Source of the DNA: a virus
DNA: 54,869 nucleotides
IMG/VR virus record: IMGVR_UViG_3300021371_000021
Span: 1 to 54,869 of that record
Reading direction: 5' to 3' (one strand)
Shown here one piece after another: positions 7,101-31,585 of the stretch (position 1 is its first letter; every line of letters begins with the position of its first letter). The position numbers and the translations under genes are program-made. Below the pieces are notes generated by a model. The model did no database searches. It was not told the DNA's origin and saw nothing but the letters and a program-made list of their open reading frames with translations.

Positions 7101-10100
7101 CCAAAGGTAAAAACTCTTGACGGCAAACCTAAGCCTTCTTTCTTACTTCCTGAGTCTATTCGAGCGCGGGTTATAGCAGAGAATAAAAAAGGTCTTTCTG
7201 CAACACAGAAAAAAAGGTTAGTAAGGTTTGAGGAAAAGTTTCTATTAGTAACTCCTGAGTACCAAGGGCCAAAGCTTGATAAGTCTGCTGAGTTAGATTT
7301 AGCTGATAACAACTTACGTTTTGCTATTCAAGAAGTTATTGATGCTCGTAAGAATCGTGGTGAGGATAAAAATGTAACTTCGCTCATAGAAAAAATAAAA
7401 TCGCTTACTGCTAAAACCAATGTAGCACTAGATGGCCCCACTATAAAAGCAAAAAATTTAGACCCGTTAAAGTTTGAATCTTTGGAAGTGCAGGCAGGAG
7501 TAGAAGGTAAAAGTTTAATTGAAGCTGCTCGATTTGCTGCTAACAACGCTCCTAACAAAGATTTACAGGTCTTGGCATCTGCTTTAGCAAATGAGCTTAA
7601 GCGGCAACAGGATAAAGGGATTTTATTTGATTTTAAAGTTTTGCACGTAGGTAATACAGTTCCTTCGTGGGCAGGTTCACTGACAAGAAACTCTAGGGGT
7701 ATTACTGGTATAACTGACACAACTGTATCTGTAGTGTTAAACGGAGCGGACGTAACAGGCAGAGTTGGCACTAGCTATAAAACCCTTGTGCATGAGTTAT
7801 TTCACGCAGCGACAATGGCTACCATACGTAATAAAAACAACAAAAACACCGCTCAACAAAATGCTGCTGTGCAAGACCTAACAAACCTTAGAGAATTTGT
7901 GCTAAGAAACTACTATACGAATAAAAATAAAAGAAACCTATCGGATATTGAAAAGCAGTTTGCGGAAGGCACTAACAATTTCTTTAAGAATAATGACGAA
8001 TTAGTCACTTGGGCTATGACAAGTCCAGAAGCGGCAGCTTATTTAGAATCCATACCATACGAACGAACAAACGTTTTTTCTGCTTTTGTGCGTATTATGC
8101 GCAAAATGATTGGTCTGCCTGAGTCCGCTGATGGGAACACTGCTTTATCTGAAGCAATACGTGTTACTGAAGTTTTATTAGGTAAGAACGCTGTAAACGC
8201 AGCTATGCGCAAAGTACAAAAAATAGAGGGTGCAGACTTAGCGGCTACTGAGCTACCTAATTTTGCTAGTGGTGCGTATATACCCGGACTAAATACAATA
8301 GTAATAAATACTGTTACAGGATTAAACGAGCATACCCTACTACATGAGTCTGCACACGCAGCTCTTGCTCAGATATTAGATAAGCCTAATCACCCGATTA
8401 CAAAAAAGTTTATGCAATTCTTTGCCGACGTAAAGCCAAAGGTTGGGGATGCTTACGGTGGTACAAACATACAAGAGTTTGCCGCTGAGTTTGTGAGCAA
8501 TGGAGAATTTCAAGCAATACTGCAAAGAATCAAAGCACCAAAAAGTGAAAACATGTTCGTCCGTATTCTTCAAACTATTCTTGAGGCATTCGGTATACGC
8601 AAATCACAAAGTGCTTACGACGTGACGTTAAAGTTTTTAGAAGAGCTGTTAGATGTATCTCAAGGAGTAGAGCCTACACTAGCGGATACCCTATACCTAA
8701 CTAATGAAAACATAGACGAAGTAATAGACGACACAATAAACGACTCTACAGATTCATTCGTAACCAGAAATACTGAGGCTGCGCTCGACACTGTGTCAAA
8801 GATACAAGACGACAAAGCTAGAGTGCTTGCATTAGGTGCTGCTAGCTTAGCTAACATGGATAACATGTACGGAGAAAATTCTCCTAGATACCGCAATAAT
8901 AATCCTTTGCCTATAGGCAGACTAATGTCCTTTATTGAAAGAAAACGTGGAGAAGTCAATAAGGCTATTGATAGGACTAGCAAAAACATTAGGATGATGA
9001 ACAAAGCGGAAAGAAAAGCTACTGCAGCTCAAAAACGAGAGTTTAATGATATTGCTATAGAGGCTCGTCTTGAAAGTGTAGATTTTTTAAAGCCTTTGCC
9101 AAAAAATGCTAGTGCTAAACAAGCGGCTGCGTACAAAAAACTAAACGTCAGATTTAATCGACTGCCTAAACCTATGCAAGCGTCGTATAAAACTTTACGT
9201 AAAGAACTGGACACGTACCTAGAAGAATACGTTGAGCTTATCACTGAGATACTGCCTGAAAGCTCAGCTAGAGAGCTAATGAAAAATTTTGTTAACTTAG
9301 AAGGTGTTGTTGCTTACGTACCTTTTGAACGCACTGGTGAGTATTACTATAGGTTTAAAGACCCTGCTAATTTAGATGCAAAGGGTAACCCAAAAGATAC
9401 GCCTGTAGCCGCAGAGTCTCCAAGAAAAAGAGATATAGCCGTAGCAGCGCTTAAAAAGAAATACGGACAAGATTTTGAAATTAAACAGTACGACAATATT
9501 GATACTATGGGTGTGCCAAAAGGACTACCTGAAGGGCAGTTTGTTACTAAGCTTGTAGGAGAGATGCGGAACAATAATATTGATAGCGCAATAATAGATC
9601 AAGTATATCAGCAGTACGTAGCTATGTTTCCAGAAAAGTCTATTATGCAACAGTTTAAAAAATCTAAAAACTTGCCCGGTATGGATAGAGATATTATCGG
9701 TGCATACTCTAACGTGTCTATTAAATGGGCTAACAAAATAGCGAACACCAGATACAATTCGCAAATTGAAACCGCGATGCAAGAGATAAGAAGGACAGCT
9801 AAAGAATATCACGGCGATAATAAATCCATGATGGCTGCCTCAAAAGCCCTAACAAAACAAGAAGCTTTCTTTTTGAACCCCACAGTAAACCCTATAGCTG
9901 CAGGACTTACTTTTGCTAGCTACTTTGAATACATTTTAGGTAGTTTATCTTCGGCTGTTGTTAACGTAACTGGCTTAGTCTTTATGGTAACACCCATGCT
10001 GGGTGCACGTACTACGTATCCTGAAGCTTTAGCTGCATTACAAGCGGGGGGAAGATTAGCCGCCGGTAAAGCTTGGCGTGACGGAAAACTAGATGGTCCG

Positions 10101-11405
10101 CTAAGCAAGTATAAAAACATGTACACTGAGTTGGATAATCGTGGACTACTCAAGCACACCGTAGCTAGGGAAGCATTGGAACGTGGTAAGACAAAAGGAA
10201 AAGATTTTGATGGTACGTTCTACAAAGCAGTAGAAATATTTTCCACGCCTTTCGCTGCAAGTGAGCGTTTTATGAGAGGAGCTACGGCTATTGCTGCTTA
10301 TGATTTAGCGATGAAAAACGGTATACCTTCTGAGGGGGTGGCTGCAAATAACGAACAGGCAGCTATAGACTTCGCAGCTAAAATGGTTAGGGATGCGCAC
10401 ACTGGCGGTATGGCAGAAACAATGCCACGGTGGATGCAAAATAGTTTTGGTCGTGTTGCGTGGACATTTAAGAACATAGTATTTCAACAAACCTACGTGG
10501 TAGCTACGTCGCTAAAGCAAGCTTTTATAGACTCTGATTTACCACCCGAAGTTAAACGTGCAGCGAGACGGCAGGTTGTAGGAACTTTCGGTCTAAGCTA
10601 CGCGCTACTTGGAGCAAAAGGATTACCTTTCTTTGGTGGTATAACTGTCCTTATGGATATGCTCAACTGGGTTTTTGGCGATGATGAAGAGCCTTACGAT
10701 GCAAGAGTAGAACTCCAAGAAATATTTGGGGATTACTTTTATACCGGCCTTATAGGGTCTGTAGCAAACATAAACATTAGTGAACGTGCAGCTTTAGGTA
10801 GAGATATATTTTATAGAGACGACCCCAAAAGTATTGAAGACTATGGACTTGTCCGTACAATTATGATGGGGCTAACTGGACCAATGGGGTCTTATTTAGT
10901 TGGTGCTGAAAAAGCTATTAGGGACGATCTACCTGCAGGTAGATACGCGTTTGCTGCTGAAGGGTTAACACCTACTTTTGTACGCAACGGCATAAAATCT
11001 TATCGTTATATGGTTGACGGGGCAAGAAATAGAGATGGTGATCCCATAGACACCGACATCAACGCATGGAACTTAATGACACAAGCAATAGGGTTTACCC
11101 CGGCGGACCTTTCAAACACTTATGAACAGCGTTCTTCTGCTAAAAACTTTGAGAATAAAGTACTTGCTAGAAAACAAAATATACTAAACAAGTATAAGAC
11201 CGCGAGAAAGCTAGGCAATAGATCGTTAGAAAGAGAAGCTGTAAAAGAAGCTTTAGCTTTTAGAAGACAGTTCCCTACGCTTATGGATGATACTACTTTA
11301 GAGCGTTCGTACAAAGCTAGTGTGCGTATAGATAGCGAAGACACGATAGCAGGTATTACATTTACTAAAGGTCTACGCTACAGAACAGATGAGTTCTTCG
11401 AGTAA
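4197..11405 (+). CDS. Giant polyvalent-type internal virion protein, tandem HExxH
   Basis: This 2402-residue protein begins with a short module (VVRMPNGDLVRFPNEMP) common at the start of phage internal proteins. Residues about 118-160 form a Gly/Ala-rich hydrophobic stretch, and about 310-640 are acidic and low in complexity. Two zincin-like motifs follow: HELFH at 1199-1203 with a possible third ligand E1268 (DELVTWA), and HESAH at 1383-1387 with E1427 (QEFAAEF). The C-terminal region, roughly 1830-2200, resembles large polyvalent protein-associated domains (LPD38-like, from memory). Polyvalent proteins are thought to enter the host with the DNA. Two metallopeptidase-like cores in one protein are unusual. 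Ejection is inferred from size, neighbours and the N-terminal module. Confidence 0.85.
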   Translation: MPVVRMPNGDLVRFPNEMPKEQISQFIETKFPNAFDTPKPSVGDIFDASLTRGAENVASTLQDDLPAYLASIFGQDEYAAAQIEEGRARRQAAAEASPAQYGSYKDVESIGDAVGFVAEKFGENVPILGGLAASALTGAVAAPLLGVGAATGAGIASALGSYSLMAPESFAGIYEETGTFAPGAASIAGAVNSALELVAPAQVLRSFSPSMRSGVVNAVLKKSGMRPSIAANAVKGVVKGAATEGTTEGTQEAVNIAAEKFVAENPLIFDSEDFKRITESAVAGAAVGLPLGGVGGVGRGITDRGQFKKDQAEAEFEAELEARLAQTPEEEVTEETVEEVITSSEAKAKNNRVVPTDVKELKKWGMDNLGIGPTAAILKPDGPIAGKDLTDPQQNQEVIDAITVFRDKLPFDSTRRPKLDQALKYLEDNKTIIGEASSVEETVDEPVVVPEEKEQAAPTPNEVNKELEALETETETETEVEALRRKATGFQTEKDTTYEEDVAERNAVDAAERQRELEALQEAEEDIPQTKPLWSKDLLGFLSDNFAFTKEKFDEVQNLSEDEMQSYLDVIDEEYDNLKFDGPLVEDTSESIAESIAESIADDSTVDEPAPDGSNTLKDDADAKVVFDQLGIDEAGSFELSTAEFNARLKEANDRIKVIEEAAKKAKEPVTSKTKDGEFLTRKEGDILVDESAEQRPITKSPTAKKDTPKKFRVGQDKLFYNNKTLARPAAAELNAFKAANPRKEDASTGAEILANYLDAYDSPEAALAVIAAEVNPSYSENTGLVLTTTPEDAAKAKAYINKSMGKEAKQALANNENFIVETLADVQRRNAKVKEDEKARKVSKLGRDKKAEELKDVGAGTKGARAVAKEKKKLVGETPRQIAKRIDAEEKARRDEEAESLAGQKEGTTGTMGAEIRNAEKIARRTEETLAQKARSDEWIAFVESLPTKNQKAFLASYKKIADAIADPKVKTLDGKPKPSFLLPESIRARVIAENKKGLSATQKKRLVRFEEKFLLVTPEYQGPKLDKSAELDLADNNLRFAIQEVIDARKNRGEDKNVTSLIEKIKSLTAKTNVALDGPTIKAKNLDPLKFESLEVQAGVEGKSLIEAARFAANNAPNKDLQVLASALANELKRQQDKGILFDFKVLHVGNTVPSWAGSLTRNSRGITGITDTTVSVVLNGADVTGRVGTSYKTLVHELFHAATMATIRNKNNKNTAQQNAAVQDLTNLREFVLRNYYTNKNKRNLSDIEKQFAEGTNNFFKNNDELVTWAMTSPEAAAYLESIPYERTNVFSAFVRIMRKMIGLPESADGNTALSEAIRVTEVLLGKNAVNAAMRKVQKIEGADLAATELPNFASGAYIPGLNTIVINTVTGLNEHTLLHESAHAALAQILDKPNHPITKKFMQFFADVKPKVGDAYGGTNIQEFAAEFVSNGEFQAILQRIKAPKSENMFVRILQTILEAFGIRKSQSAYDVTLKFLEELLDVSQGVEPTLADTLYLTNENIDEVIDDTINDSTDSFVTRNTEAALDTVSKIQDDKARVLALGAASLANMDNMYGENSPRYRNNNPLPIGRLMSFIERKRGEVNKAIDRTSKNIRMMNKAERKATAAQKREFNDIAIEARLESVDFLKPLPKNASAKQAAAYKKLNVRFNRLPKPMQASYKTLRKELDTYLEEYVELITEILPESSARELMKNFVNLEGVVAYVPFERTGEYYYRFKDPANLDAKGNPKDTPVAAESPRKRDIAVAALKKKYGQDFEIKQYDNIDTMGVPKGLPEGQFVTKLVGEMRNNNIDSAIIDQVYQQYVAMFPEKSIMQQFKKSKNLPGMDRDIIGAYSNVSIKWANKIANTRYNSQIETAMQEIRRTAKEYHGDNKSMMAASKALTKQEAFFLNPTVNPIAAGLTFASYFEYILGSLSSAVVNVTGLVFMVTPMLGARTTYPEALAALQAGGRLAAGKAWRDGKLDGPLSKYKNMYTELDNRGLLKHTVAREALERGKTKGKDFDGTFYKAVEIFSTPFAASERFMRGATAIAAYDLAMKNGIPSEGVAANNEQAAIDFAAKMVRDAHTGGMAETMPRWMQNSFGRVAWTFKNIVFQQTYVVATSLKQAFIDSDLPPEVKRAARRQVVGTFGLSYALLGAKGLPFFGGITVLMDMLNWVFGDDEEPYDARVELQEIFGDYFYTGLIGSVANINISERAALGRDIFYRDDPKSIEDYGLVRTIMMGLTGPMGSYLVGAEKAIRDDLPAGRYAFAAEGLTPTFVRNGIKSYRYMVDGARNRDGDPIDTDINAWNLMTQAIGFTPADLSNTYEQRSSAKNFENKVLARKQNILNKYKTARKLGNRSLEREAVKEALAFRRQFPTLMDDTTLERSYKASVRIDSEDTIAGITFTKGLRYRTDEFFE
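5961..6000 (+). repeat. Tandem 12-bp repeat (ESIA) within the giant gene
   Basis: Three near-perfect copies of a 12-bp unit coding SIAE/ESIA lie in the acidic low-complexity linker of the giant protein. A separate GAAACA microrepeat coding Glu-Thr pairs lies near 5605-5630. Both probably change length by slippage without affecting folded domains. Confidence 0.75.
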
Positions 11406-11415: not shown

Positions 11416-11601
11416 CCATACCCTAATACCTTGCACTCCGTCTTCTATAACTATTTTATGCACTGTTTTATATTTTAAACGCTTCGTTGTTTTATGTATT
11501 TTTTCTAGTGCCTTTGGTGGATCAAGACACGGTATAAGAAACGAATACCCCGGCTTAAACTTCTTCCAGTTGATCTGGTAACTCACCTTCTCTATCTGCA
11601 T
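11407..11601 (-). CDS. Small conserved-looking protein at the end of the early operon
   Basis: This is a 64-residue protein if read from the ATG at 11601; a GTG at 11610 would add three residues. It overlaps the 3' end of the primase-helicase gene by about 47 bases in another frame. The sequence (INWKKFKPGYSFLIPCLD, then a Lys-rich helix and a beta-like end) looks like a compact folded protein, not a shadow frame, and it fills the space up to one base before the opposing gene. The function is unknown. It is the last gene of the - strand replication operon. Confidence 0.6.
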   Translation of the reverse strand: MQIEKVSYQINWKKFKPGYSFLIPCLDPPKALEKIHKTTKRLKYKTVHKIVIEDGVQGIRVWRV

Positions 11602-14470
11602 CTTCAACACTCTCTTCTACAACGTTTTCCATATCTAAGAAGTCTGGATGGCTTGCGTCAAAAACTAAACACCTTACCGGCAAAGACATTAAGTCACTCC
11701 CCTTCGACAGCCTCTTGTTAGTAGGCTTAAGCATTACGCCTGTAGCTTCTAGGGATTCTAATGTGTCCTTGTAATCAATCTGTAGGTCCACACAATCCGC
11801 CTTAAAAGTTTTAGCCGTTATGTACACTAATTTTGTGTCGGGTTCGTACCGCATTAGCAGTGAACCTTTGGGCTGCATCTTTGGGTTTGCTCCGATAGTG
11901 TTACGTTTATCTATGCCGTCCTCTACTACTAGCATGTGATTGTTGTGCCTGTTAATAAAGTCTCCTATAACAGTACTAGGGCTACTTATAGGCGCTAGCG
12001 TATCCACTCTCATTTCTTTAACACTTTTACAAACTTCGTTAAGTATATTTTGTATATCAAAACCGTGACTAACCCCGTCCTCATCTACATGAGTAAGCAG
12101 CCCTAACCTTTGTGCTATAGCTCCGCCTGTTATGTTTACAGCAACTGCAGCAGACCAATTACGCTCCCGTTGAGTTAAGTTTAATTTTCGATCAATGGTA
12201 GCTTGTGTTTTTAGTACTGCTTCTTTTACTTCTTCTAAATGGCCCAGTAACCACTGCATATAAACTTCACCGGCAATGCCATAGTTTTCAATCAATGTAT
12301 GGTCTAGTAAATCTTTGCCTTCCTGCGTAGATATAACAGGCTCATCTAACGGAGGAACCTTAAACTCTAGTAAACGCATCATCTCTCCGTCAGCTTTACT
12401 TTTAAGCACCCCAAGTTTTTCGTAAAACGATGCGTTAGAACTCGCAATAGATAACGTTCTCCAAGTAATAGTATTTTTCCTAAGCTCGTTAGCATTTGCT
12501 TTGGCTTTATCTTTCCCTCTTCCCTGTGAGTACGCATACAATAACTTTGATGCGCTTAGAGGAGGCATGTTAGTTATCTCGTCCATAGTGTTTACTATGT
12601 TATTCAAGAAACCTACCTTTAGTATTTTACCAACGTCCGTATCTTCAGGAGTCCCAAGAAGCATTTCAGGATCGCCAAAAATACTGTTAGCCATACGCAA
12701 TATAGTAGTTTTGCCTGTACCAGAATCTGCGTGAATGAAATTTATTAGCGCCCCTTTCTGCCCAGTAAATTTTAGTAAGGGTGCACCGAAACCGGACAAT
12801 GCACCAAATGCTTGTATCTCTAGCCCCTTCCTTCCGTACAACGAAAAGACTTCTTTCCATTTTTCTAACGTACCTTTAGGTCTAAAATAATCTACCATAT
12901 TAGCTATAGAACTAGCCGGGGGGCTATGGTAAATACCTGTAGCTGTAATTTCTCTATCCCCCACAATAAATTTACTGTCGTTATCCGCCCAACCGAACTG
13001 CTCTCTCATAATGTTTGCCTTGGTTTGCCATTGAAGGTCTTTGATAAAAGTTGATAAATAATTTTGTATAAGTTTTTGCCGAGGTAAGTCTGCTATAACT
13101 CCATGTTTGGCTAGCTCCTTACGCAGCTCAGCTAAATCCGTGACTTGTACATTGGTCATCACAAATTCTTTTATGCCGTCTTTGGGTAAGTGATGTTTGA
13201 TTATGGCAACAAACCCCTGCAACGGGTCTTCCATTAACTTAACTACATACAAAAAATTCTCGTAAACTAGTTTAGGTTTGCTATCCTCGTCTCCATCGCC
13301 CTCCGCTTCTTTATAGATGCCCCCTTCAGCGCCTCTAAAGTATCCTTGAGGTAGCTTTGGTATTTCAATCTCTTCTAAAATTTCATTTTCTACCTCGACG
13401 AAAACTTTACTCGTATCAGCCTTAACTATTACACGGCCTAGAGATATGGGGCTTCTAATCTTTTCCGAATGTACGCACCCTTCGCACCCGCCGGGGTTAT
13501 TTATTTCAAATTCTTTGCACGTATGCGGACCTTTGATTCCTTCTACTTTCTTTTCTACTAGTTCATAGTCGTAATCTGGGTGGCCCTCAGAAAGTTTATG
13601 TATTGCTGTGTCCCTGTCAGAACAAAACTGCGCTACTGATAAAGCGTCAAACCACCGTGGTTCAACAAGAGTAGCCCTGTTCATATAGCAATCTGCGAGT
13701 TGACCGCAACCTTCTCCTTTAAGGCTTCTGCGCATAATCTTAGAGAACAGAGAGTCATTGTTCTGCATAAGGGACTTACTAAGCGCAGACATCTCGTGCT
13801 TAGCCTTTACTACTTGGCCTTCCTCAACTCCAACTATGCCTCGTATTTCCTTAAACGGTATTGGGTCAACAACACTTATAAGTTTGACGGGTTTTTCTTT
13901 TTCATCAGAAGCATCGCCTTTAAAGTTAAAAGAGTTGAGTGGGCGTAATACCCTAGCGCATTCAAACACTTTGGTGTCTATATAGAAGTTGTTATCTATA
14001 CAAAGCTGCCTAAGCTTTTTAGCTACAGGAACCCATTCATCCCTAGGAACATCTTCGGCTAGGGGCCAATAGGCATGTAGTCCATTGCCTGAATTTACTA
14101 ACATGGGTTTTGGTAGCTTGACGGTAGAGCAGAAACTAACTAAAGCCTTTAGTCCCTCAGCTTGGGTTTCATACCCGCCGGGCCTACCAGTTTTATCGTC
14201 TGCTATAGATTTATTTGGCCCGCAATCTATGTCAAGCCAGTACGACTTTAACGATTCAACGTTATCTTGGGTACGGTTCTTGCCGGTTTTAAACTTTGCT
14301 AAGGTAAAAAATACACACCACCTGTCAGCTACATATTTTTCTATCTCTGCGTCTAACTCCTCTCTGGTTTCCACCATAGATTGGCGCGTTGTAGTTTTAC
14401 CTTTAACCGCAAGAAAACCATACCACCCACCCGCAGGGCGAACTAGGGCTATGAGGTCTGTGTTCTCCAT
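11555..14470 (-). CDS. Primase-helicase (AEP primase plus AAA+/DUF927-like helicase)
   Basis: This 971-residue protein has two modules. The N-terminal part fits an archaeo-eukaryotic-type primase (PrimPol/RepE-like), with a metal-binding pair D80 and D82 in YWLDIDCG and a nucleotide-binding motif NSGNGLHAYW at residues 126-135. A Cys cluster (CKEFEINNPGGCEGC) near residue 320-340 may bind zinc. Around residues 575-590 a Walker A motif, DSGTGKTT, starts a helicase domain of the DUF927 kind. The expected role is to prime and unwind DNA at the phage fork for the family A polymerase encoded in the same early region. It starts four bases after the HTH gene. Length and order fit fused phage primase-helicases. 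Confidence 0.88.
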   Translation of the reverse strand: MENTDLIALVRPAGGWYGFLAVKGKTTTRQSMVETREELDAEIEKYVADRWCVFFTLAKFKTGKNRTQDNVESLKSYWLDIDCGPNKSIADDKTGRPGGYETQAEGLKALVSFCSTVKLPKPMLVNSGNGLHAYWPLAEDVPRDEWVPVAKKLRQLCIDNNFYIDTKVFECARVLRPLNSFNFKGDASDEKEKPVKLISVVDPIPFKEIRGIVGVEEGQVVKAKHEMSALSKSLMQNNDSLFSKIMRRSLKGEGCGQLADCYMNRATLVEPRWFDALSVAQFCSDRDTAIHKLSEGHPDYDYELVEKKVEGIKGPHTCKEFEINNPGGCEGCVHSEKIRSPISLGRVIVKADTSKVFVEVENEILEEIEIPKLPQGYFRGAEGGIYKEAEGDGDEDSKPKLVYENFLYVVKLMEDPLQGFVAIIKHHLPKDGIKEFVMTNVQVTDLAELRKELAKHGVIADLPRQKLIQNYLSTFIKDLQWQTKANIMREQFGWADNDSKFIVGDREITATGIYHSPPASSIANMVDYFRPKGTLEKWKEVFSLYGRKGLEIQAFGALSGFGAPLLKFTGQKGALINFIHADSGTGKTTILRMANSIFGDPEMLLGTPEDTDVGKILKVGFLNNIVNTMDEITNMPPLSASKLLYAYSQGRGKDKAKANANELRKNTITWRTLSIASSNASFYEKLGVLKSKADGEMMRLLEFKVPPLDEPVISTQEGKDLLDHTLIENYGIAGEVYMQWLLGHLEEVKEAVLKTQATIDRKLNLTQRERNWSAAVAVNITGGAIAQRLGLLTHVDEDGVSHGFDIQNILNEVCKSVKEMRVDTLAPISSPSTVIGDFINRHNNHMLVVEDGIDKRNTIGANPKMQPKGSLLMRYEPDTKLVYITAKTFKADCVDLQIDYKDTLESLEATGVMLKPTNKRLSKGSDLMSLPVRCLVFDASHPDFLDMENVVEESVEDADREGELPDQLEEV

Positions 14471-14474
14471 TAAA

Positions 14475-14708
14475 TTATTGCTCCAACTTAGCTATTATTT
14501 TTTGTATTTCTTCAGCTGCTGAAGGTTTAGGAATAGAAATACCCACAAACCAGTTATATACCGCTTGGCGACTAACGTTAAGTTTTTGTGCTACTTCGGT
14601 AACGGGCACATCGTTTTTAATGCACACCGCTCCGAAGTAAACGCCAAGAAGGTTTTTATCGGCAGCCTTATTTAGTTCTACAAATTTTAGGCTATATCCG
14701 TAACTCAT
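14475..14708 (-). CDS. Helix-turn-helix protein (XRE/Cro-like)
   Basis: This 77-residue protein is read from the ATG at 14708, five bases after the upstream stop; a GTG at 14729 would add seven residues. Residues about 34-57 form a helix-turn-helix (VTEVAQKLNVSRQAVYNWF) followed by a C-terminal helix. Such proteins bind DNA as dimers. It sits inside the replication operon between the SSB-like gene and the primase-helicase, not next to a divergent promoter. It is the only clear small DNA-binding regulator in the window and so the first candidate to recognise the 22-bp palindromes or the promoter-overlapping ACANTGT motifs (inference). Confidence 0.75.
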   Translation of the reverse strand: MSYGYSLKFVELNKAADKNLLGVYFGAVCIKNDVPVTEVAQKLNVSRQAVYNWFVGISIPKPSAAEEIQKIIAKLEQ

Positions 14709-14713
14709 TAGGC

Positions 14714-16021
14714 TTATTCGCTCCCCCACTCGTCAATAATAGAAGAAAGGTCTTCTCCGCTAGCTTGAGGTTCTTCTTTCTTTTTCTTGCGTTTCACTGG
14801 TTCCGCAGCCGGTTCTTCGTCGGCAAACGGATCAGGCTCAGGTGCACTCTGGATAGGTACAACATTTGACTCGAAACCATCGTTAGTATCTTCAGCAGTG
14901 AAAGGGCTATCGGAAGAGTTGCCCGCAACAAAGCCATCTTCTTCTGCTTCAAAAGGAGACTCTCGTGATACCTTCGGGGCTAACTTTTTGACCATTACTG
15001 CTTTAAGTCTTAGCGATATGCCGCCGGGACTATTTTGAGTCTTCTTGTAAGGCACGAACTCAACTTGTATATGCACTAAACTCTTGTGCGTCAGTTCAAA
15101 ATCCTTATCAAGTTTGTTGTTTTTTATATCGTATTGGTCAGGGACATCAGTTGGTCCACTTTCGTATGCGGCTTTTATCCTAGAAGTACCTTTATAAGTT
15201 CCTCCGTCTTGCTTTTTAAACGTCATTTTTAGGTCGTCATATTTAGCATATGCTTTATCCGTCTTACGTTTCTCGTCCCAAGCTGTTTTCATTAGGCCAT
15301 ATAGTTCTTTAGCTTGGTCTAGGTCCATTATAAAACCTAGTTCATAGGAAGCTCCGGGCGCATCTGAAGCGCAGGGTACACTGCGATTTTGCTCATCGCT
15401 CCACTTGTATGGTTGGTTTATGCGAGGCCAATCTGCAATTACATTCTTTATTACGTACGTCATATATTGCTCCTTAAAAGGGTTAAGTTCTGCAGCTTCG
15501 TTAAGCTGTTGTATGTTTGTAAGTTCTTCCTGTGTAAGAGGTCGAACGGGTTTGAAATATATCCTAGAAAGGTTTTCTACCTGTGAAAGATATATCTCTG
15601 TCAAAACAGTATGTAGCTGTTCTTTGTTGCTCTTAAGGTAATCCCTGTATTGGTACAGGGTCATCTTGTTAATTGACTTAGCAAACAAACTAGCTCCGCC
15701 AATACGCAAACTACATGCTGTTAATGAGTTCTCTTGTACTAAACTAATAGTTGTATAAAATTTACAGGGCTTACTTTTATACCCGGTTGCACCTTTGATG
15801 TTCTGCACACAATCAATACATCGGGCCGACTCTCTGTCTTCAAGCGGCACACTGGAGTCAGGGGTGTTGGAGTCCGAAGACCAGCACTTAAGCTTGCCTG
15901 AGTGGTCGTAGTAGTTCCTAGACAATAAACCTTCGTTCGTTATTACTGCTTCGACTGAGGTTCTAAGCTCACCTGTACTGGGGTCTATAAAGTGCCCGTC
16001 ATCGGTCCGTAGCCTGTTCAC
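14714..16021 (-). CDS. Putative ssDNA-binding protein with acidic tail and Cys cluster
   Basis: This 435-residue protein starts at a GTG whose GTGA overlaps the upstream stop. An N-terminal Cys pattern (CWSSDS...CIDCVQ...KPCKF, about residues 46-87) looks like a zinc site. The middle is beta-rich with a segment IQVEFVPYKK near residue 310. The last 90 residues are disordered, with Lys-rich and Asp/Glu-rich blocks ending in DEWGSE, as in bacterial and phage SSB tails that dock partner proteins. Position beside the primase-helicase supports a replication role. The OB fold is inferred, not visible, so SSB is the best guess only. Confidence 0.6.
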   Translation of the reverse strand: MNRLRTDDGHFIDPSTGELRTSVEAVITNEGLLSRNYYDHSGKLKCWSSDSNTPDSSVPLEDRESARCIDCVQNIKGATGYKSKPCKFYTTISLVQENSLTACSLRIGGASLFAKSINKMTLYQYRDYLKSNKEQLHTVLTEIYLSQVENLSRIYFKPVRPLTQEELTNIQQLNEAAELNPFKEQYMTYVIKNVIADWPRINQPYKWSDEQNRSVPCASDAPGASYELGFIMDLDQAKELYGLMKTAWDEKRKTDKAYAKYDDLKMTFKKQDGGTYKGTSRIKAAYESGPTDVPDQYDIKNNKLDKDFELTHKSLVHIQVEFVPYKKTQNSPGGISLRLKAVMVKKLAPKVSRESPFEAEEDGFVAGNSSDSPFTAEDTNDGFESNVVPIQSAPEPDPFADEEPAAEPVKRKKKKEEPQASGEDLSSIIDEWGSE

Positions 16022-21385: not shown

Positions 21386-23224
21386 CTAACATTCTCCATA
21401 TGAAGCTCCAAACCCCCCTTCGCAGTCCAAAGGTAACCCTTTAGCCCACTCAGGTGTTTGTTTCATGCAACTATATATGTAGCTCATAGCCTGTTCTGCT
21501 TCATCTTCTGGTGCTATACAACCTAACGCATCGTGAACAGTCATAACTACTTTGTACCTTTTAGCCACGAGGAGCAAGTGATGCCCAACGATTAATCTAG
21601 CTAGAGCTTGGCATATATTCTCAACTATTTTACCGCCGTATATCCTAGTAGGTATAACCGATCGACCCTTCTTTACGTCGTACAAAAACTCGTTCCTACC
21701 AGTTTCTTCGTTAGCTTCCATGCGCAAATTAGGATACTTTATGTATAGGCCGTTTGGTAATAGTATTCCCTTTTTACCGTCTACTTTAAGTAGTTGTCGT
21801 GTGCCTATATACTCTGTTTTGTTGTCCATCATTGCATATAGCGACCCTTCGCATCTTCGCCATAACGCAGTAATGTGAGAAGACCGCATCCGATATACCT
21901 TTATAATCCTGCCGCATTCGTTTGACTCAAGAGATACCCCCATAGACTTTAGCTGAGCCTGAAATTTATCCATTCCCATTCCGTAACCGCATCCAAGTAC
22001 CGTAGTCTTACCGACAAAACGTTCTTCTTTTGTAATCTTTTCCTCTGGTTTATCGTAAATCATTGATGCCATGATTTTATATACATCTAAACCTTCACTG
22101 AATGCGTCTAGCAAATTAAACTGCTCAGACAGCCACGCCAGAGTCCTAGCTTCTATTTGAGAAGAGTCACAGTCTAAGAATGTATAACCTTGAGGAGCTA
22201 ACATAGCGTTCTTGAGAATAGAACCACGAGGTAAGTTCTGCATGTTTATCTTATCGGCTCCGCCCCAACGTCCTGTGTGCGCTGCATAGTATTTAAGCGG
22301 TATAGGTAATGACCCCCTGTTACCTATTCCTATAAAGCGTTCTGTCCTAGTCTCTTCAATAGTGGACTTTACCCCTAGCCGTGCACTCACAAGTATCTGG
22401 ACTACTGGGTTCTCGTGTTCCTTTAGTGCTTGGAAAGCTTCATCTGTTTTAGCAAAAGCTAAAGTTTCCTTGCCAGTGGTTGGACTAGTTTTTACAGGGG
22501 GTATTACTCCTTGCGCTTCAAGAAGCTCAGCAAACTGAGGGTTGCTCATTATCTGTTCCCTCTGTACACCGGCCTTGCCTAACCATTCTGCTTTCTTTTC
22601 TTTCAGTTCCTGTAGGTGGTTCTCCAGTAAGAAAGTACCTACTTCTAGTACCGGCTCGGTAAACATCCTCAAGGTCAAGTCTACAAGTTTCAACTCTTCT
22701 ACAGGAAAGCCCTCGTCCATTAAACACTTAAACAACTTAAAGGTTAGCTCAGCATCGTTCTTGCAGTACCCTGCGTAAGCCGTTAGCTCTTGCTCAGAAA
22801 AATCTTTGGTGTGCTTACCCATAGCATCCAGAACTTCTGTGCCTTTTTTGCCTATGTTGTAGTGTTCTGACAGAGCTTTTAAACTACCTCCAACTTGAGT
22901 TCCATGTATTGCCCTAGCCATAGATAGCGTATCGGCTATTCGACTAGGTTTTATATCAAACCGCCAGTTCATAATAGCCATATCGAACATAGCGTTGTGG
23001 GCAACGGTGAGTGAGTTTTTCCAATCAAACTTATTTAAAAATTGTTTTGTATCTTCGTGGTTCCCAGAGAACCAAGTGCTAGAACTAGCACTACTATCAT
23101 CAACGTGTACGGCTACACCGATGACTTCAAACTGTGGGTCTCTGATATACTGTTCAGTTGTAAGCTTGGATAAACTGTAAGCTCTATCGTAATAAGTCTC
23201 AAAGTCTATTGTTAAAATTTTCAT
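21386..23224 (-). CDS. polA: Family A DNA polymerase with 3'-5' exonuclease
   Basis: This 612-residue replicative polymerase has exonuclease motifs DFET (D7, E9), HNAMFD (D81) and YCKND (Y153, D157), then polymerase motif A DSSQIEAR (D353), motif B R402-K406-L410-Y414-G415, and motif C VHDA (D565). The residue equivalent to E. coli Phe762 is Leu410, a variant known from marine virus surveys and linked there to slower replication and temperate or persistent lifestyles. Motif C ends in Ala where most relatives have Glu. There is no 5'-3' exonuclease domain, normal for phages. It lies 15 bases after the VRR-NUC gene and belongs to the unit driven by the promoter at 23540-23568. Confidence 0.95.
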   Translation of the reverse strand: MKILTIDFETYYDRAYSLSKLTTEQYIRDPQFEVIGVAVHVDDSSASSSTWFSGNHEDTKQFLNKFDWKNSLTVAHNAMFDMAIMNWRFDIKPSRIADTLSMARAIHGTQVGGSLKALSEHYNIGKKGTEVLDAMGKHTKDFSEQELTAYAGYCKNDAELTFKLFKCLMDEGFPVEELKLVDLTLRMFTEPVLEVGTFLLENHLQELKEKKAEWLGKAGVQREQIMSNPQFAELLEAQGVIPPVKTSPTTGKETLAFAKTDEAFQALKEHENPVVQILVSARLGVKSTIEETRTERFIGIGNRGSLPIPLKYYAAHTGRWGGADKINMQNLPRGSILKNAMLAPQGYTFLDCDSSQIEARTLAWLSEQFNLLDAFSEGLDVYKIMASMIYDKPEEKITKEERFVGKTTVLGCGYGMGMDKFQAQLKSMGVSLESNECGRIIKVYRMRSSHITALWRRCEGSLYAMMDNKTEYIGTRQLLKVDGKKGILLPNGLYIKYPNLRMEANEETGRNEFLYDVKKGRSVIPTRIYGGKIVENICQALARLIVGHHLLLVAKRYKVVMTVHDALGCIAPEDEAEQAMSYIYSCMKQTPEWAKGLPLDCEGGFGASYGEC

Positions 23225-23623: not shown

Positions 23624-23645
23624 GAGTTTAGTTTAGACTAAACTG
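23624..23645. repeat. 22-bp palindrome, copy 1 (degenerate)
   Basis: GAGTTTAGT, TTAG, ACTAAACTG on the + strand. It is the weakest copy, with the outer base of one arm changed. It lies between the 47-residue gene and the terminator, 90 bases upstream of VRR-NUC but separated from it by the terminator and promoter. Confidence 0.8.
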
Positions 23646-24982: not shown

Positions 24983-25231
24983 TTACTTTTCGGGTCTACC
25001 TGCTAGCTTACATACAGCGTACATAGCACTCGACATTGTTTTAGTCTCGCGTACTGAGTCCTCTGCATCACAGTCATACACATGATGCGTATAGAATGAC
25101 TCTCCACCATTATCGGAGCGCGACCATTTCTTCTGGTATCGTTCACAGTCATCCAGAATGTCATAGACAGCCTGCAGTTGCTCTGTTGACACCACATAGT
25201 GTTTGTCAGTTACCTCCAATATAAACTTCAT
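24983..25231 (-). CDS. 82-residue protein of the MoxR-VWA cluster
   Basis: The start overlaps the VWA stop as ATGA. The product begins MKFILEVTDKHYVVSTEQLQ, then a helix and a Ser/Asp-rich stretch, ending in a helix with Cys (SSAMYAVCKLAG). It looks like a small alpha/beta protein. No family assigned. Tight coupling to the VWA gene suggests a joint function. Confidence 0.6.
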   Translation of the reverse strand: MKFILEVTDKHYVVSTEQLQAVYDILDDCERYQKKWSRSDNGGESFYTHHVYDCDAEDSVRETKTMSSAMYAVCKLAGRPEK

Positions 25232-26460
25232 ACTCTTCTCTCCAGTTGAATTGTTTTGCCCACCGGCGCGGTTATCTTACTGTGTGGGTTGTGTATGCCC
25301 CACAACACAGGGCAGTCCCACTTACCCCAACCCATCACTTCACCATCTGTCAGTACAACAGTGGCATCGGGTTTGATCTGCTTCTCACGTAAGTAGTCAG
25401 CAACACAGCTTGGGTCTGTACCTCCTCCACCATGAGGTTTAGTCAGAGTGCGCCAGTTCTTAAAGTTACTGCTTGTATACTCCTCGTGTGCACACACATC
25501 TCCATCCCAGTACATCAGGTGTATCTTGGCTATCTCTAGCTGTGTAGCCATACCCTCTACCTCTGACATACACACCTCAAAGGAATCATCGAAGAACATG
25601 GACCCAGACACATCGGGGGCAACGACCAGTTCTTTGATACACTGTCCCTTCATAATGGGCATCACCAGACCAGTGGTTACCCAGAACCTACGGTCGATGC
25701 GATCGTAAGAAGCATTGACGGGCTTACTACACGTCGCTCGTAGCCAGTGCTTCATCTGCTCGACCCAGTCGATCTTAGGTGCAAGCAGCCCACCAAGTGC
25801 TAGCGCACCCTCACCTTTGCCCTTGCCTGCTTTCTTTGCAGCCATAATACCTTGGCGTATAGCGGAGTTGACCTCTGCCTTGAGTGCTTCTTTCTCCTCG
25901 CTGGACATACCTTTAGCACCTTCCCAGTCATGGTCGTCCAGACCACCAGAGCCACCATCTCCATCGCCACCATCTCCATCGCCATCATCATCCTTATCTT
26001 TCTCGGCATAGATAATGTCAAAGATTTGTTTGATCGCCATACCCTTGAACCTTTCGTCAATAAGACCTACCGGATTACCTTCGGGGTCTTTGGGCATAGC
26101 GACAATCGTTTCCTGTGGGTCCGATGCTACTATGGTCTGGTTAATCCAATAGTCACAGGCTTGGTTCGCAGTACTGGCGCACAACCTATGTAGTTTCTCG
26201 TATATCTCAAGATGCCTACCGGCTTTGTGCCAATTCTCATGCAGGGTAATGAACCCTGCGCCTTTATCCCCCCACTGAAAGATAAAGTCAGGGTTGTACT
26301 TCTCGTCCCTACCGTTCGTACAGGCAGTAGGTACATCCCTTGTGAACTCTCGTGTGCCTGTCATCATGATGGGTCCAAGCTCAACGAACTTATCGCTCCT
26401 CATAATCTCAATGCGTTTACGTTTAAACCTACGTAGCTTTTGATCATCTGTTAGTTCCAT
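25228..26460 (-). CDS. VWA-domain protein with zincin-like N-domain (DUF2201-like)
   Basis: This 410-residue protein has two parts joined by an Asp/Gly-rich linker (residues 155-175). The N-domain holds HENWH at 74-78 followed by NQACDYWIN, matching the putative metallopeptidase domain usually paired with VWA in DUF2201 proteins. The C-domain is a von Willebrand A fold with a full MIDAS: D283-x-S285-x-S287, T348 in GGGGTDP, D372 in LTDGE. VWA proteins of this kind act with a MoxR AAA+ partner as a chaperone or remodelling pair (RavA-ViaA, CobS-CobT style). Here the MoxR gene lies nine bases upstream. The target is unknown. Confidence 0.85.
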   Translation of the reverse strand: MELTDDQKLRRFKRKRIEIMRSDKFVELGPIMMTGTREFTRDVPTACTNGRDEKYNPDFIFQWGDKGAGFITLHENWHKAGRHLEIYEKLHRLCASTANQACDYWINQTIVASDPQETIVAMPKDPEGNPVGLIDERFKGMAIKQIFDIIYAEKDKDDDGDGDGGDGDGGSGGLDDHDWEGAKGMSSEEKEALKAEVNSAIRQGIMAAKKAGKGKGEGALALGGLLAPKIDWVEQMKHWLRATCSKPVNASYDRIDRRFWVTTGLVMPIMKGQCIKELVVAPDVSGSMFFDDSFEVCMSEVEGMATQLEIAKIHLMYWDGDVCAHEEYTSSNFKNWRTLTKPHGGGGTDPSCVADYLREKQIKPDATVVLTDGEVMGWGKWDCPVLWGIHNPHSKITAPVGKTIQLERRV

Positions 26461-26469
26461 ACGGTTCTC

Positions 26470-27570
26470 CTATAGTAAGTCTTGGTTACGTTCAGCCCAC
26501 TCTGCGAACGCTCGTGAGGTAAAGGCTAGCCTACGCTTAGCATCAGTAGAGTTAGGACCGGCTAGACTCACACCAAAGATCACTTGAAACTCCTCGGTAT
26601 CATAGTCTGCATCGTCCCTGCTTATGTACGTCATGAACGAATCCAAATCTTCCTTGTCCTTGATATGCTCCAGTGCACTGAACGTCAGTACTGCACAAGC
26701 CCCTGCATTCGGGGGCAGTGGGGCTGTCGTTGGGTTAGCTTTGATCTCGCTCCAAGGAGTCATAGACTCATGATGCTGTATGAAATGCGTGATTGAATTA
26801 GCCGCTGATGCACCTACGGTACCAACCAGAGCCGCCTTCAACGCATTGGCTGAGTAGCCATGGCGCGTCTTGACCAAGTTACTTGCAAGCTCCAGTGTCC
26901 TTGGCGTTACCACTGAACCCTGTCCCACAACGTCAGGGTCAAAAATATAGGGGTTGTTTTTCTGTCCGCTGTCTCGGTAAGAAGCCAAGCAGTCAGAGTT
27001 TCTACTCACCCATGCCATGATGATTGGTTCAATGTCGTTGTCAGCCGCCCACACCAACCACTCGTCACTATCTGGTTTACATATCTCAACAAACGAGACG
27101 CGCATTTTACTGTGGGCTTTGAGACTGTCGCCAACCCCATCGCTTTCGAGGTTACCTGTCATGAACACAATGCTACCTTCGGGTAATGGTAGGTCACCCA
27201 GTCGGGGGTCTTTGACTTCCAACAGTGGGTGCAATGTATTCTTCACCTCATCAGAACCTTTGGTGAACTCATCAAGGCATATGATGACCGGCTTACCCTC
27301 GTGCAGTCTGAATCTTGCGTTGGGGTAGTACTGTAGCGTCTTGGTCTGCATATCAGGTATCGGTATAGCACCATCGCCTATGCCCATGTTGGGTACATCA
27401 ATGATTGCATATGGGTAACCAGTTCTACGTGACAGCTCTGCCACAATGCTTGTCTTACCAACGCCCGGCTCACCTGCCAGATAGAATTTGTTACTGGGGT
27501 TACACGCTAGCATTGCCGGTGCTTCCACCAAAGTTACTGTGACACGATCTTCTAGTTTTACATTTTCCAT
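26470..27570 (-). CDS. MoxR-family AAA+ ATPase
   Basis: This 366-residue ATPase has Walker A GEPGVGKTS (33-41), Walker B VIICLDE (D100, E101), and sensor-1 Asn140 in VFMTGN. The spacing and the segment TLQYYPNARFRL fit the MoxR group. These hexameric ATPases remodel proteins with a VWA partner, and the next gene encodes one. A CGGAG ribosome site precedes the ATG, and palindrome copy 3 is 32 bases upstream, inside the end of the previous gene. In bacteria such pairs also belong to conflict systems; in a phage it could target a host complex, aid virion assembly or insert metal. I cannot choose between these. Confidence 0.9.
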   Translation of the reverse strand: MENVKLEDRVTVTLVEAPAMLACNPSNKFYLAGEPGVGKTSIVAELSRRTGYPYAIIDVPNMGIGDGAIPIPDMQTKTLQYYPNARFRLHEGKPVIICLDEFTKGSDEVKNTLHPLLEVKDPRLGDLPLPEGSIVFMTGNLESDGVGDSLKAHSKMRVSFVEICKPDSDEWLVWAADNDIEPIIMAWVSRNSDCLASYRDSGQKNNPYIFDPDVVGQGSVVTPRTLELASNLVKTRHGYSANALKAALVGTVGASAANSITHFIQHHESMTPWSEIKANPTTAPLPPNAGACAVLTFSALEHIKDKEDLDSFMTYISRDDADYDTEEFQVIFGVSLAGPNSTDAKRRLAFTSRAFAEWAERNQDLL

Positions 27571-29467: not shown

Positions 29468-29677
29468 TTACCGTTCATAACGCTTGGGATTGATTTGCTT
29501 CACGACATCCAAAGCATCGCTGTTAGTGAACGCCATGTAGCCTTGTTTATGCAGGGGGATAACAGTGTGCTTGTGTTGTCTAGCTACTGCCTCTCCGCAT
29601 TGCAAGCAGGATTGATAGCCTAGGTCTGCTCTAGCAGTGGGGAAGGGGGCATCGCAATAGATACACAGGTTTGTCAT
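29468..29677 (-). CDS. Zinc-ribbon protein (69 residues)
   Basis: Two CxxC pairs, C5/C8 (CIYC) and C24/C27 (CLQC), frame a PFPTARADLGYQS loop, as in small zinc-ribbon and DksA/TraR-like phage proteins. A conserved-looking segment KQGYMAFTNSD follows. It is the first gene after the promoter at 29767-29795 and palindrome copy 5, so it leads the long accessory operon. Such proteins can bind RNA polymerase or DNA; which applies here is not shown. Confidence 0.75.
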   Translation of the reverse strand: MTNLCIYCDAPFPTARADLGYQSCLQCGEAVARQHKHTVIPLHKQGYMAFTNSDALDVVKQINPKRYER

Positions 29678-29766: not shown

Positions 29767-29795
29767 ATTATATCACGGCTACTATACAATGTCAA
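29767..29795 (-). promoter_or_regulatory. Perfect sigma70 promoter of the MoxR-region operon
   Basis: On the - strand TTGACA (29790-29795), 17 bases, TATAAT (29767-29772), with a TG one base before the -10 (extended -10). All twelve consensus bases match. Palindrome copy 5 begins about 40 bases downstream of the -10. The -35 continues as TTGACATTGT. Confidence 0.85.
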
Positions 29796-29858: not shown

Positions 29859-30183
29859 TGTTACAAAATGGGGCTTTGTTACATTTGTAAAACAGGTTTG
29901 TAACAATAAACGTAACAATAGAAACGCCCGTAAATACTGGGCTGTGTTACAAAGTTACCTGTATTGTTATAATGTTACATAAAATAATATATATATATAG
30001 GACTCTTGAACTTTGTAACACTGCTAGGACTTTTGCTTTGTTACAAGCTCACTCTATCTAGTATCCCCATACGTTACTTTTAAGACGTAACATTGTAACA
30101 ATACAAGCATTGTTATATATATCATAGGTTTACTTAGCCAAGCTAATGTTACACCTTAGACAAACACTTACATAAACGTAACA
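29859..30183. repeat. Array of TGTTACA/TGTAACA/CGTAACA heptamers, candidate origin
   Basis: At least a dozen copies of the heptamer in both orientations lie within 325 bp, for example at 29859, 29877, 29899, 29911, 29945, 29973, 30014, 30039, 30086, 30094, 30147 and 30177. Between them is an AT-only run (AATAATATATATATATA near 29984-30000). No gene occupies the region. Many short directional repeats next to an AT-rich easily melted block is the usual form of a replication origin with initiator-binding iterons. Alternatively it is a dense cluster of regulator sites for the promoters on either side. Confidence 0.6.
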
Positions 30184-30223
30184 ATAGGTAGCTAGCTCGT
30201 AAGCTACTATCATAAGAACTACT

Positions 30224-30245
30224 ATCATCTCACGATTGAGATGAT
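30224..30245. other. Hairpin-forming inverted repeat beside the repeat array
   Basis: ATCATCTC, six bases, GAGATGAT is a perfect 8-bp inverted repeat. A smaller one, TAGCT, four bases, AGCTA, lies about 25 bases before it. Neither has a T-run. Both are at the end of the heptamer array and could belong to an origin. Confidence 0.5.
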
Positions 30246-30263
30246 ATATAAGTAGAGTAGTTA

Positions 30264-30306
30264 GGGTGGGTGAGTTTGTCAGAAGGGGGGAGGAAGGGGG
30301 GAGGGG
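30264..30306 (+). other. G-run cluster (possible G-quadruplex)
   Basis: Runs of 3, 3, 6, 6 and 4 G on the + strand within 43 bases meet the general pattern for a G-quadruplex. It lies between the candidate origin and the terminator of the 236-residue gene. Function is not known. Confidence 0.4.
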
Positions 30307-30323
30307 AGTAGAAACTCGAGGCG

Positions 30324-30348
30324 AAAAAAAACCGCCCGAAGGCGGTTT
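30324..30348 (-). terminator. Strong rho-independent terminator of the 236-residue gene
   Basis: On the - strand AAACCGCC, TTCG, GGCGGTTT forms an 8-bp stem with a TTCG tetraloop followed by an eight-T tract (complement of 30324-30331, partly overlapping the stem). It ends the transcript of the single gene 30382-31092. Confidence 0.92.
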
Positions 30349-30381: not shown

Positions 30382-31092
30382 TTAAACAAGGGCTGTGAGT
30401 AATTCCGCGACAGTCATTTTTCTCGGCGCGTCGATAAGCTTGCTTCTCTCGATTCGCTCGATCGCGGTTAGCAATGCCATGCGCAACGGTTCGGCTCGCT
30501 TGTCTCTCGATAGATCGGAAAGCTCCTCTTTGATTTCCGTGAGCTTTGATTTGAAAATACCTCGGCAGGTTTCCAAAGCATCGACCTTACCCTGAGCTTC
30601 TTTTTCGGAAGCTTTGTCTTCATTGGCTTTGGCTAAGGCTAGCTCGGCTTTGGCAATTTTTAAGTCGTTAACAACGGCTTTCTGCTCTTCGATGTACTCT
30701 ATCTTTTCTTGTTTGAGTTTATCAACCCGCAATTCCGATTCGGTTTTCTCTTTCGGTTCGACCGGCTCAGGTTTTTTGAGAGTCTTCCCAAAGTAGGCGT
30801 GCTGATAAGCTTGCCAACAAGAAGCGTACTTTGTGTTTACTGCTTGGATAATCGCGGCTAGCTCCTCGGCTTTCTCAAGTGACAGCCCGCATTTATCCGC
30901 GGCTTTCTGCTTTGTTTCTAGCTTGGTGTCCTCTCGGAATGCATTACAGCTGAGTCCGCCGTTAGCCGTCGTGTTGACAGCGTCCTCACCATAGCGATCG
31001 GCTAGCGTTTTCATTACCTCGGCTAATGCCAGCGTTTTGTTCTCATACGTTTCTATTATTATCTTAATCATTTCAGTAGTGAATTTATTCAT
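30382..31092 (-). CDS. Unrecognised 236-residue protein, single-gene early unit
   Basis: This protein has a helical N-terminal domain (residues 1-105; with NGGLSCNAFREDTKLETKQK and LSLEKAEELAAIIQ) and a long charged coiled coil (about 110-205), then a short C-terminal domain ending MTVAELLTALV. It stands alone between a perfect promoter, palindrome copy 6 and a double terminator, next to the candidate origin. Base use (cgcg, tcgat runs) looks more GC-rich than its neighbours, a possible sign of separate descent. There is no good ribosome site directly before the ATG; AAAGGAGAAC lies upstream of the palindrome. A replication initiator or early regulator is possible by position only. Confidence 0.75.
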   Translation of the reverse strand: MNKFTTEMIKIIIETYENKTLALAEVMKTLADRYGEDAVNTTANGGLSCNAFREDTKLETKQKAADKCGLSLEKAEELAAIIQAVNTKYASCWQAYQHAYFGKTLKKPEPVEPKEKTESELRVDKLKQEKIEYIEEQKAVVNDLKIAKAELALAKANEDKASEKEAQGKVDALETCRGIFKSKLTEIKEELSDLSRDKRAEPLRMALLTAIERIERSKLIDAPRKMTVAELLTALV

Positions 31093-31102
31093 AAGCTTGT
31101 AT

Positions 31103-31124
31103 CAGTTTAGTCTAGACTAAACTG
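31103..31124. repeat. 22-bp palindrome, copy 6 (perfect)
   Basis: CAGTTTAGT, CTAG, ACTAAACTG: all 22 bases are self-complementary. It lies between the -10 box at 31164 and the start at 31092, ten bases before the ATG, and takes the place of a normal ribosome site. Confidence 0.92.
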
Positions 31125-31163
31125 CGTTCTCCTTTTAAGGTTATGTGGAAGTCCCACGCTTCC

Positions 31164-31192
31164 ATTATAACACATCTATTGGACATTGTCAA
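31164..31192 (-). promoter_or_regulatory. Perfect sigma70 promoter of the 236-residue gene
   Basis: On the - strand TTGACA (31187-31192), 17 bases, TATAAT (31164-31169). Twelve of twelve consensus bases. The -35 continues as TTGACAATGT. A second possible start with an extended -10 (TGATATAAT, complement of 31298-31306) lies about 130 bases upstream without a good -35. Confidence 0.88.
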
Positions 31193-31460
31193 GTTACCCC
31201 TAAAATACCCCCTTCCCTACCCTAGGACCCCACCCGTGGGGGGGACACCCAATGCCTAGACAAGCAGTACCACTGGCCCATACATAATAATACGCTCATT
31301 ATATCACAACTTTTCACAGTTCTTCTTAACAACTCTATGTAAATCAATGACTTACCCCCACCCCCTTTTTTCTGTACCCGTCTGGCTCGCACCCCACCCC
31401 CTCGCACACAGGAATACCCCCCGTCAAGGGACCCAAACTCCCTATTTCAATCCGTATTAT
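31193..31460. other. Non-coding C-rich divergent region
   Basis: No convincing gene. The + strand has repeated C-runs (for example near 31208, 31228, 31355-31366, 31391-31402, 31418-31424), so the - strand could form G-quadruplexes, and a hairpin CCCCAC, CC, GTGGGG lies at 31228-31241. Open frames here encode only Pro- or Gly-rich low-complexity sequence. Confidence 0.5.
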
Positions 31461-31510
31461 AATTTCCAACCTTCTCCAACCTTTTCCACCCTTTTCAACT
31501 CCTTTCAATT
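31461..31510 (+). repeat. Five imperfect 10-bp tandem repeats upstream of the terminase
   Basis: Units aatttccaac, cttctccaac, cttttccacc, cttttcaact and cctttcaatt follow each other at exactly 10 bases. T/C tracts and CAAC steps thus recur once per helical turn, which should bend the DNA and present the same face repeatedly. The block lies 75 bases before the small terminase gene, where phage packaging sites often occur. A TATAAT at 31458-31463 overlaps its start but has no good -35. Confidence 0.6.
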
Positions 31511-31585
31511 CTCCTTGCGGTATTGCGTCTGCTATGCTAATGCCGTACACTCCGCCCAACACGGTATCACTACCTGCGAAAACAT

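Follow-up and report, generated by a model that had tools for sequence, protein, structure and literature searches.

A mirrored array of short repeats as a proposed replication origin in a family of marine podovirus-like phages

We propose that an array of short repeats in the genome of a marine, podovirus-like phage is its replication origin and that it works like the origins of PICI/SaPI elements, a reading drawn from sequence and predicted fold to which we assign a probability of roughly 80%. An earlier note on this DNA had suggested an iteron-type origin, and the part of that claim that concerns a replication origin is retained here while the classical plasmid iteron type is not. A repeat-type origin is the best-supported reading because the array is conserved across the phage family in both place and geometry, lies on the weakest duplex of the genome, and has a geometry that is found again in unrelated phages, a short distance downstream of genes for initiator helicases. 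It is also favored because the phage encodes an initiator-type helicase with a C-terminal domain like those of SaPI Rep and Cch. For environmental phages, the replication origin is seldom identified.

Genome context

The window, that is, the whole stretch of DNA analyzed, is a phage record 54,869 bp long. The large terminase shares 51-57% identity with its counterparts in the Pelagibacter phages HTVC023P and HTVC027P and in phages 023Pt_psg01 and DSL-LC04, and the phage has its own portal and major head protein as well. Gene direction diverges around 31 kb, with replication genes running leftward and packaging and structure genes rightward. The replication genes include a phage-encoded polymerase:

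21386 to 23224, minus strand: family A DNA polymerase

Two further regions were noted on the left side of the window. A gene pair at 25228-27570, encoding a MoxR-type AAA ATPase and a DUF2201/VWA-like metallopeptidase, sits beside the early region in most relatives as well. At 4197-11405, a 2402-aa protein has matches to an internal virion protein whose structure is known and to a DarB-like family of antirestriction proteins. A weak virion RNA polymerase match of the 2402-aa protein had led us to consider the nearby hairpins as promoters for an injected polymerase, an idea that was abandoned, the PDB match being to the internal virion protein.

Searches of the window for Rfam families and tRNAs found none, and a DNA similarity search of the window against a phage collection returned nothing. 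No relatives were retrieved when viral contigs were scanned with the lone gene described below, a 369-aa gene, or the MoxR gene.

The repeat array

The array and its main elements are as follows.

29859 to 30183, no strand: repeat array, the proposed replication origin, with 12 heptamers, and 15 TGTTA/TAACA cores when counted from 29846
29859 to 29917, no strand: left outer boxes, TGTTACA at 29859 and 29877 (plus strand), with mirrored boxes at 29899 and 29911
29965 to 29978, plus strand: central tandem pair TGTTATaaTGTTAC, at an 8-bp step
29979 to 29999, no strand: AT-only tract and proposed unwinding element, 21 nt, the longest AT-only run in the window and its least stable duplex
30087 to 30100, minus strand: mirror tandem pair, reading GTAACATTGTAACA on the plus strand, 122 bp from the central pair

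The earlier note had claimed at least 12 TGTTACA-type heptamers in both orientations within these 325 non-coding bases, and we counted exactly 12 exact heptamers, nine being TGTTACA or TGTAACA and three CGTAACA. In 20,000 first-order shuffles of the array region, the mean was 0.39 sites and the maximum five. Counted over the whole window, TGTTACA is not enriched overall (12 copies versus 11.1 expected), yet nine of the 12 copies sit in the array, and the signal is therefore one of clustering only.

The core word of the array is TGTTA, and the tandem pair at 29965-29978 has its mirror image in the second pair at 30087-30100. Expressed generally, the geometry is a tandem TGTTAYwwTGTTAY that is mirrored on the opposite strand 112-131 bp away. 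Steps between boxes are irregular (8-53 bp) and both orientations are present. The 21- and 12-bp steps of the left outer boxes are found in relatives as well. Inverted repeats had also been proposed and are indeed present, for example 29941-29956 with 30009-30024 and 29960-29978 with 30087-30105. A scan of 29859-30183 for the DnaA box TTATNCACA, allowing at most one mismatch, found none.

When duplex stability was compared over the entire 54.9 kb, the weakest 25-, 40-, and 60-bp stretches all fell on the AT-only tract at 29979-29999. Such a block had been placed near 29984-30000 in the earlier note, which was right as to its presence and slightly too far right as to its position. Across 18 arrays of the family, the least stable 25 bp of the region was in most cases at or beside the central pair.

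Conservation among relatives

Relatives with a terL 75-92% identical to that of the window were examined, and the position of the array is kept in more than 20. In these phages TGTTA cores are most densely clustered about 2-3 kb upstream of terL, typically with 8-15 cores per 400 bp, versus about one elsewhere. What is conserved is the spacing: the tandem pair retains its 8-bp step, the outer boxes have steps of 18-21 and 11-13 bp, and the mirrored pair lies 112-131 bp away in many of the relatives' records. Sequence as a whole is barely conserved, identity among the arrays being 61-70%, compared with 59-62% for shuffled controls. The word itself drifts between phages, from TGTTAC to TGTTAT, TGTTAG, a mixture with TGTAAGAA, and TATTATTA, and the mirrored pair stays.

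Several arrays depart from this layout. One record (L064) has a TTGTTGTA array at the equivalent place and lacks the exact mirrored pair. Several relatives (L009, L012, L019, and L020) have two pairs pointing the same way rather than an exact mirrored pair on the right. When the orientation of boxes was tallied, 54 boxes left of the midpoint faced in and 20 out, and 51 boxes to the right faced in and 15 out.

The array and the candidate initiator described below occurred together in all eight records that could be read at both places (the window, G001, G002, G008, G013, G014, G015, and G020), a comparison that is limited by the fragmentary nature of the records. One additional record, G010, has neither a TGTTA array nor the initiator, and is a fragment that stops short of the initiator's place and hence is uninformative.

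Among more distant phages, Pag-Yong1 (L085:21215-21580) and 023Pt_psg01 (L082:13620-13800) have clusters of other words, GTCATAC and TGGCACA, respectively, between their replication and packaging genes. These clusters lack the mirrored pair. No clear mirrored array was seen in the 36 kb read of the partial genome of Pseudomonas phage Rollin.

Candidate initiator

Two proteins encoded side by side on the minus strand are candidate binders of the array.

11555 to 14470, minus strand: candidate initiator, 971 aa, with an AEP-type primase, a DUF927 helicase, and a C-terminal winged-helix-like domain
11621 to 12073, minus strand: C-terminal domain of the candidate initiator, with its best fold matches to the C-terminal domains of SaPIbov1 Rep and SCCmec Cch
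14475 to 14729, minus strand: HTH_3 protein, 84 aa, just upstream of the primase-helicase gene and conserved in the family

The 971-aa protein has primase motifs and a Pfam DUF927 match (1e-27), and sequence-profile searches against PDB profiles gave matches to Cch and SaPI Rep. In the whole-protein model, built from six sequences and with a poor helicase core (pLDDT 58.6), the full-length fold matched SaPIbov1 Rep (Z 13.1) and Cch (Z 11.8), and the predicted fold of the N-terminus aligned to S-2L PrimPol (Z 17.5). The 158 C-terminal residues, modeled alone, reached a pLDDT of 78. The best fold matches of this domain were the corresponding C-terminal domains of SaPIbov1 Rep (Z 9.5) and Cch (Z 9.3), followed by TcpK (Z 8.1), a protein that binds oriT DNA, and the next distinct entries scored 6.6 and 4.6. 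No Rep_3-type initiator was found among the window proteins scanned with Pfam, a subset of the ORFs.

The initiator of the array is most likely the 971-aa primase/DUF927-helicase, which would bind the boxes through its C-terminal winged-helix-like domain. The 84-aa HTH_3 protein is a candidate for an alternative or accessory binder.

The geometry beyond the family

We searched for the geometry independently of the word across 115 loci totaling 1.57 Mb, requiring only that some 5-mer recur after an 8-bp step and that this pair have a mirror image at a distance of 80-170 bp. The only matches were the arrays of the family and one intergenic gap of 0.77 kb in Rhizobium phage RHph_TM3_14A. When this gap was shuffled, a match arose in 0.2% of cases. 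RHph_TM3_14A encodes a distant homologue (24%) of the candidate initiator.

A pattern scan of 2.9 million viral contigs in IMG/VR, made on sequence alone for TGTTA-type mirrored pairs, yielded 93 loci, 73 of which had at least one family gene and 51 a family TerL or TerS. Where these genes were present on the available piece, TerS was mostly 1.0-3.6 kb to one side of the array, and the zinc-finger and MoxR/VWA genes were on the opposite side. The most informative loci were those outside the family, several of which placed the array close behind initiator-type genes. In L143 it lies 102 bp downstream of a 792-aa ORF that is a primase/D5 helicase (D5/DUF5906), and the same distance separates it from an ORF of the same size in L171 and L130, the D5 identity having been shown in L143. 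The array is 77 bp downstream of a DUF3854/primase-like gene in L145, and 57 and 229 bp downstream of VapE-like helicase genes in L152 and L158, respectively. Another locus, L191, encodes a DUF927 protein with the helix-turn-helix domain of Cch (HTH_56). Some loci had neither a family gene nor a recognized initiator on the available piece.

A partition or silencing site, that is, a centromere-like region bound by a ParB- or Omega-type protein, was also considered for the array. Such sites do resemble the array in having many short sites in both orientations. However, no ParA or ParB family match was found among the window proteins searched (a subset of the ORFs), and a partition site would leave both the unstable center and the location beside initiator genes elsewhere unexplained, such that we regard this explanation as extremely improbable.

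Self-loading initiator helicases of several classes (DUF927, D5, and VapE) may have in common a general origin architecture that has not previously been described, in which two tandem pairs of a short word, each with an 8-bp step, stand as mirror images about 110-130 bp apart on either side of the weakest duplex. In such origins the word would vary freely with the initiator and the geometry would be held. We put this generalization forward tentatively, at slightly under an even chance. If true, the origins of many uncultured phages would be readable directly from sequence.

Flanking elements, gene regulation, and packaging

The elements on either side of the array are listed here.

29468 to 29677, minus strand: small CxxC...CxxC protein with a DksA-like zinc-finger match, first gene of the left early operon
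29767 to 29795, minus strand: perfect consensus sigma-70-like promoter, adjoining the array on its left
30205 to 30246, plus strand: ACTATCAT element and hairpin (ATCATCTCA-cgat-TGAGATGAT), with counterparts to the right of the array in relatives
30329 to 30348, minus strand: terminator-like hairpin, which ends the lone-gene transcript ahead of the array
30382 to 31092, minus strand: lone gene, 236 aa, right of the array
31164 to 31192, minus strand: perfect consensus sigma-70-like promoter by sequence, driving the lone gene

The array thus does lie between two early promoters (31192-31164 and 29795-29767, both on the minus strand) and next to a lone gene of unknown function, as had been claimed for it. 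The lone-gene product had no match in Pfam or PHROG. At this place, a leftward ORF of about 160-270 aa was present in all 22 records inspected, and these ORFs are very divergent, although one subgroup has the motif HxNPSxxWxRIxxYGR in common. The lone-gene product was considered as the binder of the array and rejected because its family does not track the word (L035 is close to L026, and their words differ); it was kept only as a possible operator-binding protein.

An operator would be bound by a phage DNA-binding protein, for example this product or the 84-aa HTH protein, which would control the strong early promoter at the left edge of the array. A strong leftward promoter adjoins the array in 15 of 23 records and the HTH_3 protein is conserved, as this would have it, but the boxes do not overlap the promoter in the window, with the first heptamer 64 bp upstream of the -35. 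Further, the equally strong early promoter at 31192-31164 has no boxes, though both promoters have a downstream palindrome. A mirrored layout of 325 bp around the weakest duplex would be unusual for an operator, and elsewhere the geometry sits downstream, not upstream, of initiator genes. Regulation of this kind is therefore an unlikely role for the array.

The palindrome, AGTTTAGTCYRGACTAAACT, is present in six perfect or near-perfect copies, at 23625, 24948, 27604, 29438, 29707, and 31104, all within the leftward early region, and in the transcripts of both strong promoters it is located about 33 nt from the start. Other palindromes occupy such places in relatives, namely CTAACAtTGTTAG in L061 and L066 and GTTTAGG..CCTAAAC in L036. 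The inner stem of the hairpin that follows ACTATCAT varies on both of its sides among relatives (CAGTAG/CTACTG, CAGC/GCTG, and TCTCA/TGAGA). Between the array and the terminator, 30264-30310 is G-rich, with several plus-strand runs of 3-6 G, and a similar tract is present in L036.

The contig ends of relatives cluster at window positions 31000-31550, in a C-rich region that may be a physical genome end or a break in assembly. These ends, being assembly ends and thus indirect evidence, lie about 0.6-1.1 kb upstream of terL, and a conserved gene is located directly upstream of terL. Both observations would suit a packaging start, at which the small terminase binds the array and the genome end is cut nearby. 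However, the clustered ends are about 1 kb from the array and past a whole gene, a comparison of the end sequences revealed no obvious common terminus, and phages whose terminases differ also have the geometry next to helicase genes. We therefore consider a packaging function very unlikely.

Cumulative GC skew, which had been suggested as a check on the origin, has its minimum near 31-32 kb. Its switch coincides with the change in gene direction, and for this reason the skew is not decisive and was not used as evidence.

Proposed mechanism and implications

Under the origin reading, initiator molecules would bind the TGTTAC boxes as two groups that flank a center of about 100 bp and mostly face each other. 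The two assemblies would then open the AT-only tract at 29979-29999, where melting is expected, and each would load onto one strand as a helicase ring. Primers made by the fused primase could then be extended by the phage family A polymerase, with two forks departing in opposite directions, so that replication would probably be bidirectional. Among the observations that run against the origin reading are the 15 kb between the initiator gene and the array, the outer boxes that break the facing orientation, the relatives with no exact mirrored right pair, the poorly modeled helicase core of the initiator, and the scan loci with neither a family gene nor a recognized initiator.

The word-free geometry offers a sequence-only test with which origins can be located in phages that have not been cultured, and the drifting words constitute natural material for studying the co-evolution of initiators and origins.

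Comparison with known systems

Lambda-type and plasmid iteron origins likewise have repeats that adjoin an AT-rich unwinding element, but in them the direct repeats are regular and confined to one side of the AT region, and the helicase is loaded by the host, whereas the sites of the phage array face each other across it. The array is a poor fit to a classical plasmid iteron origin because its sites are irregular and facing and because a DnaA box is absent from it.

Other systems combine primase and helicase in one protein. ORF904 of pRN1 is a primase-helicase fusion. The pRN1 replication protein requires a non-coding origin in cis (PMC4234260). That origin is a 100-nt stem-loop, unlike the repeats of the phage array. 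For the alpha protein of satellite phage P4, the binding sites are short repeats (origin and crr), and the helicase and primase families, as well as the word, differ from those here. P4 alpha holds initiator-helicase and primase functions in a single protein (PMC7145576).

SCCmec Cch has a DUF927 helicase, and its C-terminal fold is shared, by prediction, with the phage initiator. The C-terminal domain of Cch2 binds short repeats in vitro (PMC7581432). In contrast to the phage array, the putative Cch/Cch2 origin has only three 5-nt iterons and is not known to support replication in vivo.

The layout of the array resembles the two-sided PICI-type origin and not the classical iteron origin. Every PICI origin has two sets of iterons, one on each side of an AT-rich region, and sits immediately 3' of rep (PMC6092414). 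In the phage array, too, two sets of short repeats flank an AT-rich center, and the phage initiator, like SaPIbov1-type Rep, has a DUF927 helicase together with a C-terminal domain of Rep-like predicted fold. The position directly 3' of an initiator-type gene is matched in the unrelated loci L143, L145, and L152. In the phage, unlike in PICIs, the array is about 15 kb from the initiator gene and beside an early promoter, and the primase is fused to the helicase. Moreover, PICIs and SaPIs are helper-dependent satellite islands, whereas the phage carries terminase, portal, and capsid genes of its own. To our knowledge, exact mirrored tandem pairs with drift of the word have not been described for PICIs. 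In our reading the array works like a PICI-type origin without being a member of the PICI family, given the 15 kb between it and the initiator gene and the phage's own structural genes. A PICI-like layout together with the matching initiator type in a widespread family of marine phages links phage replication with that of satellites.
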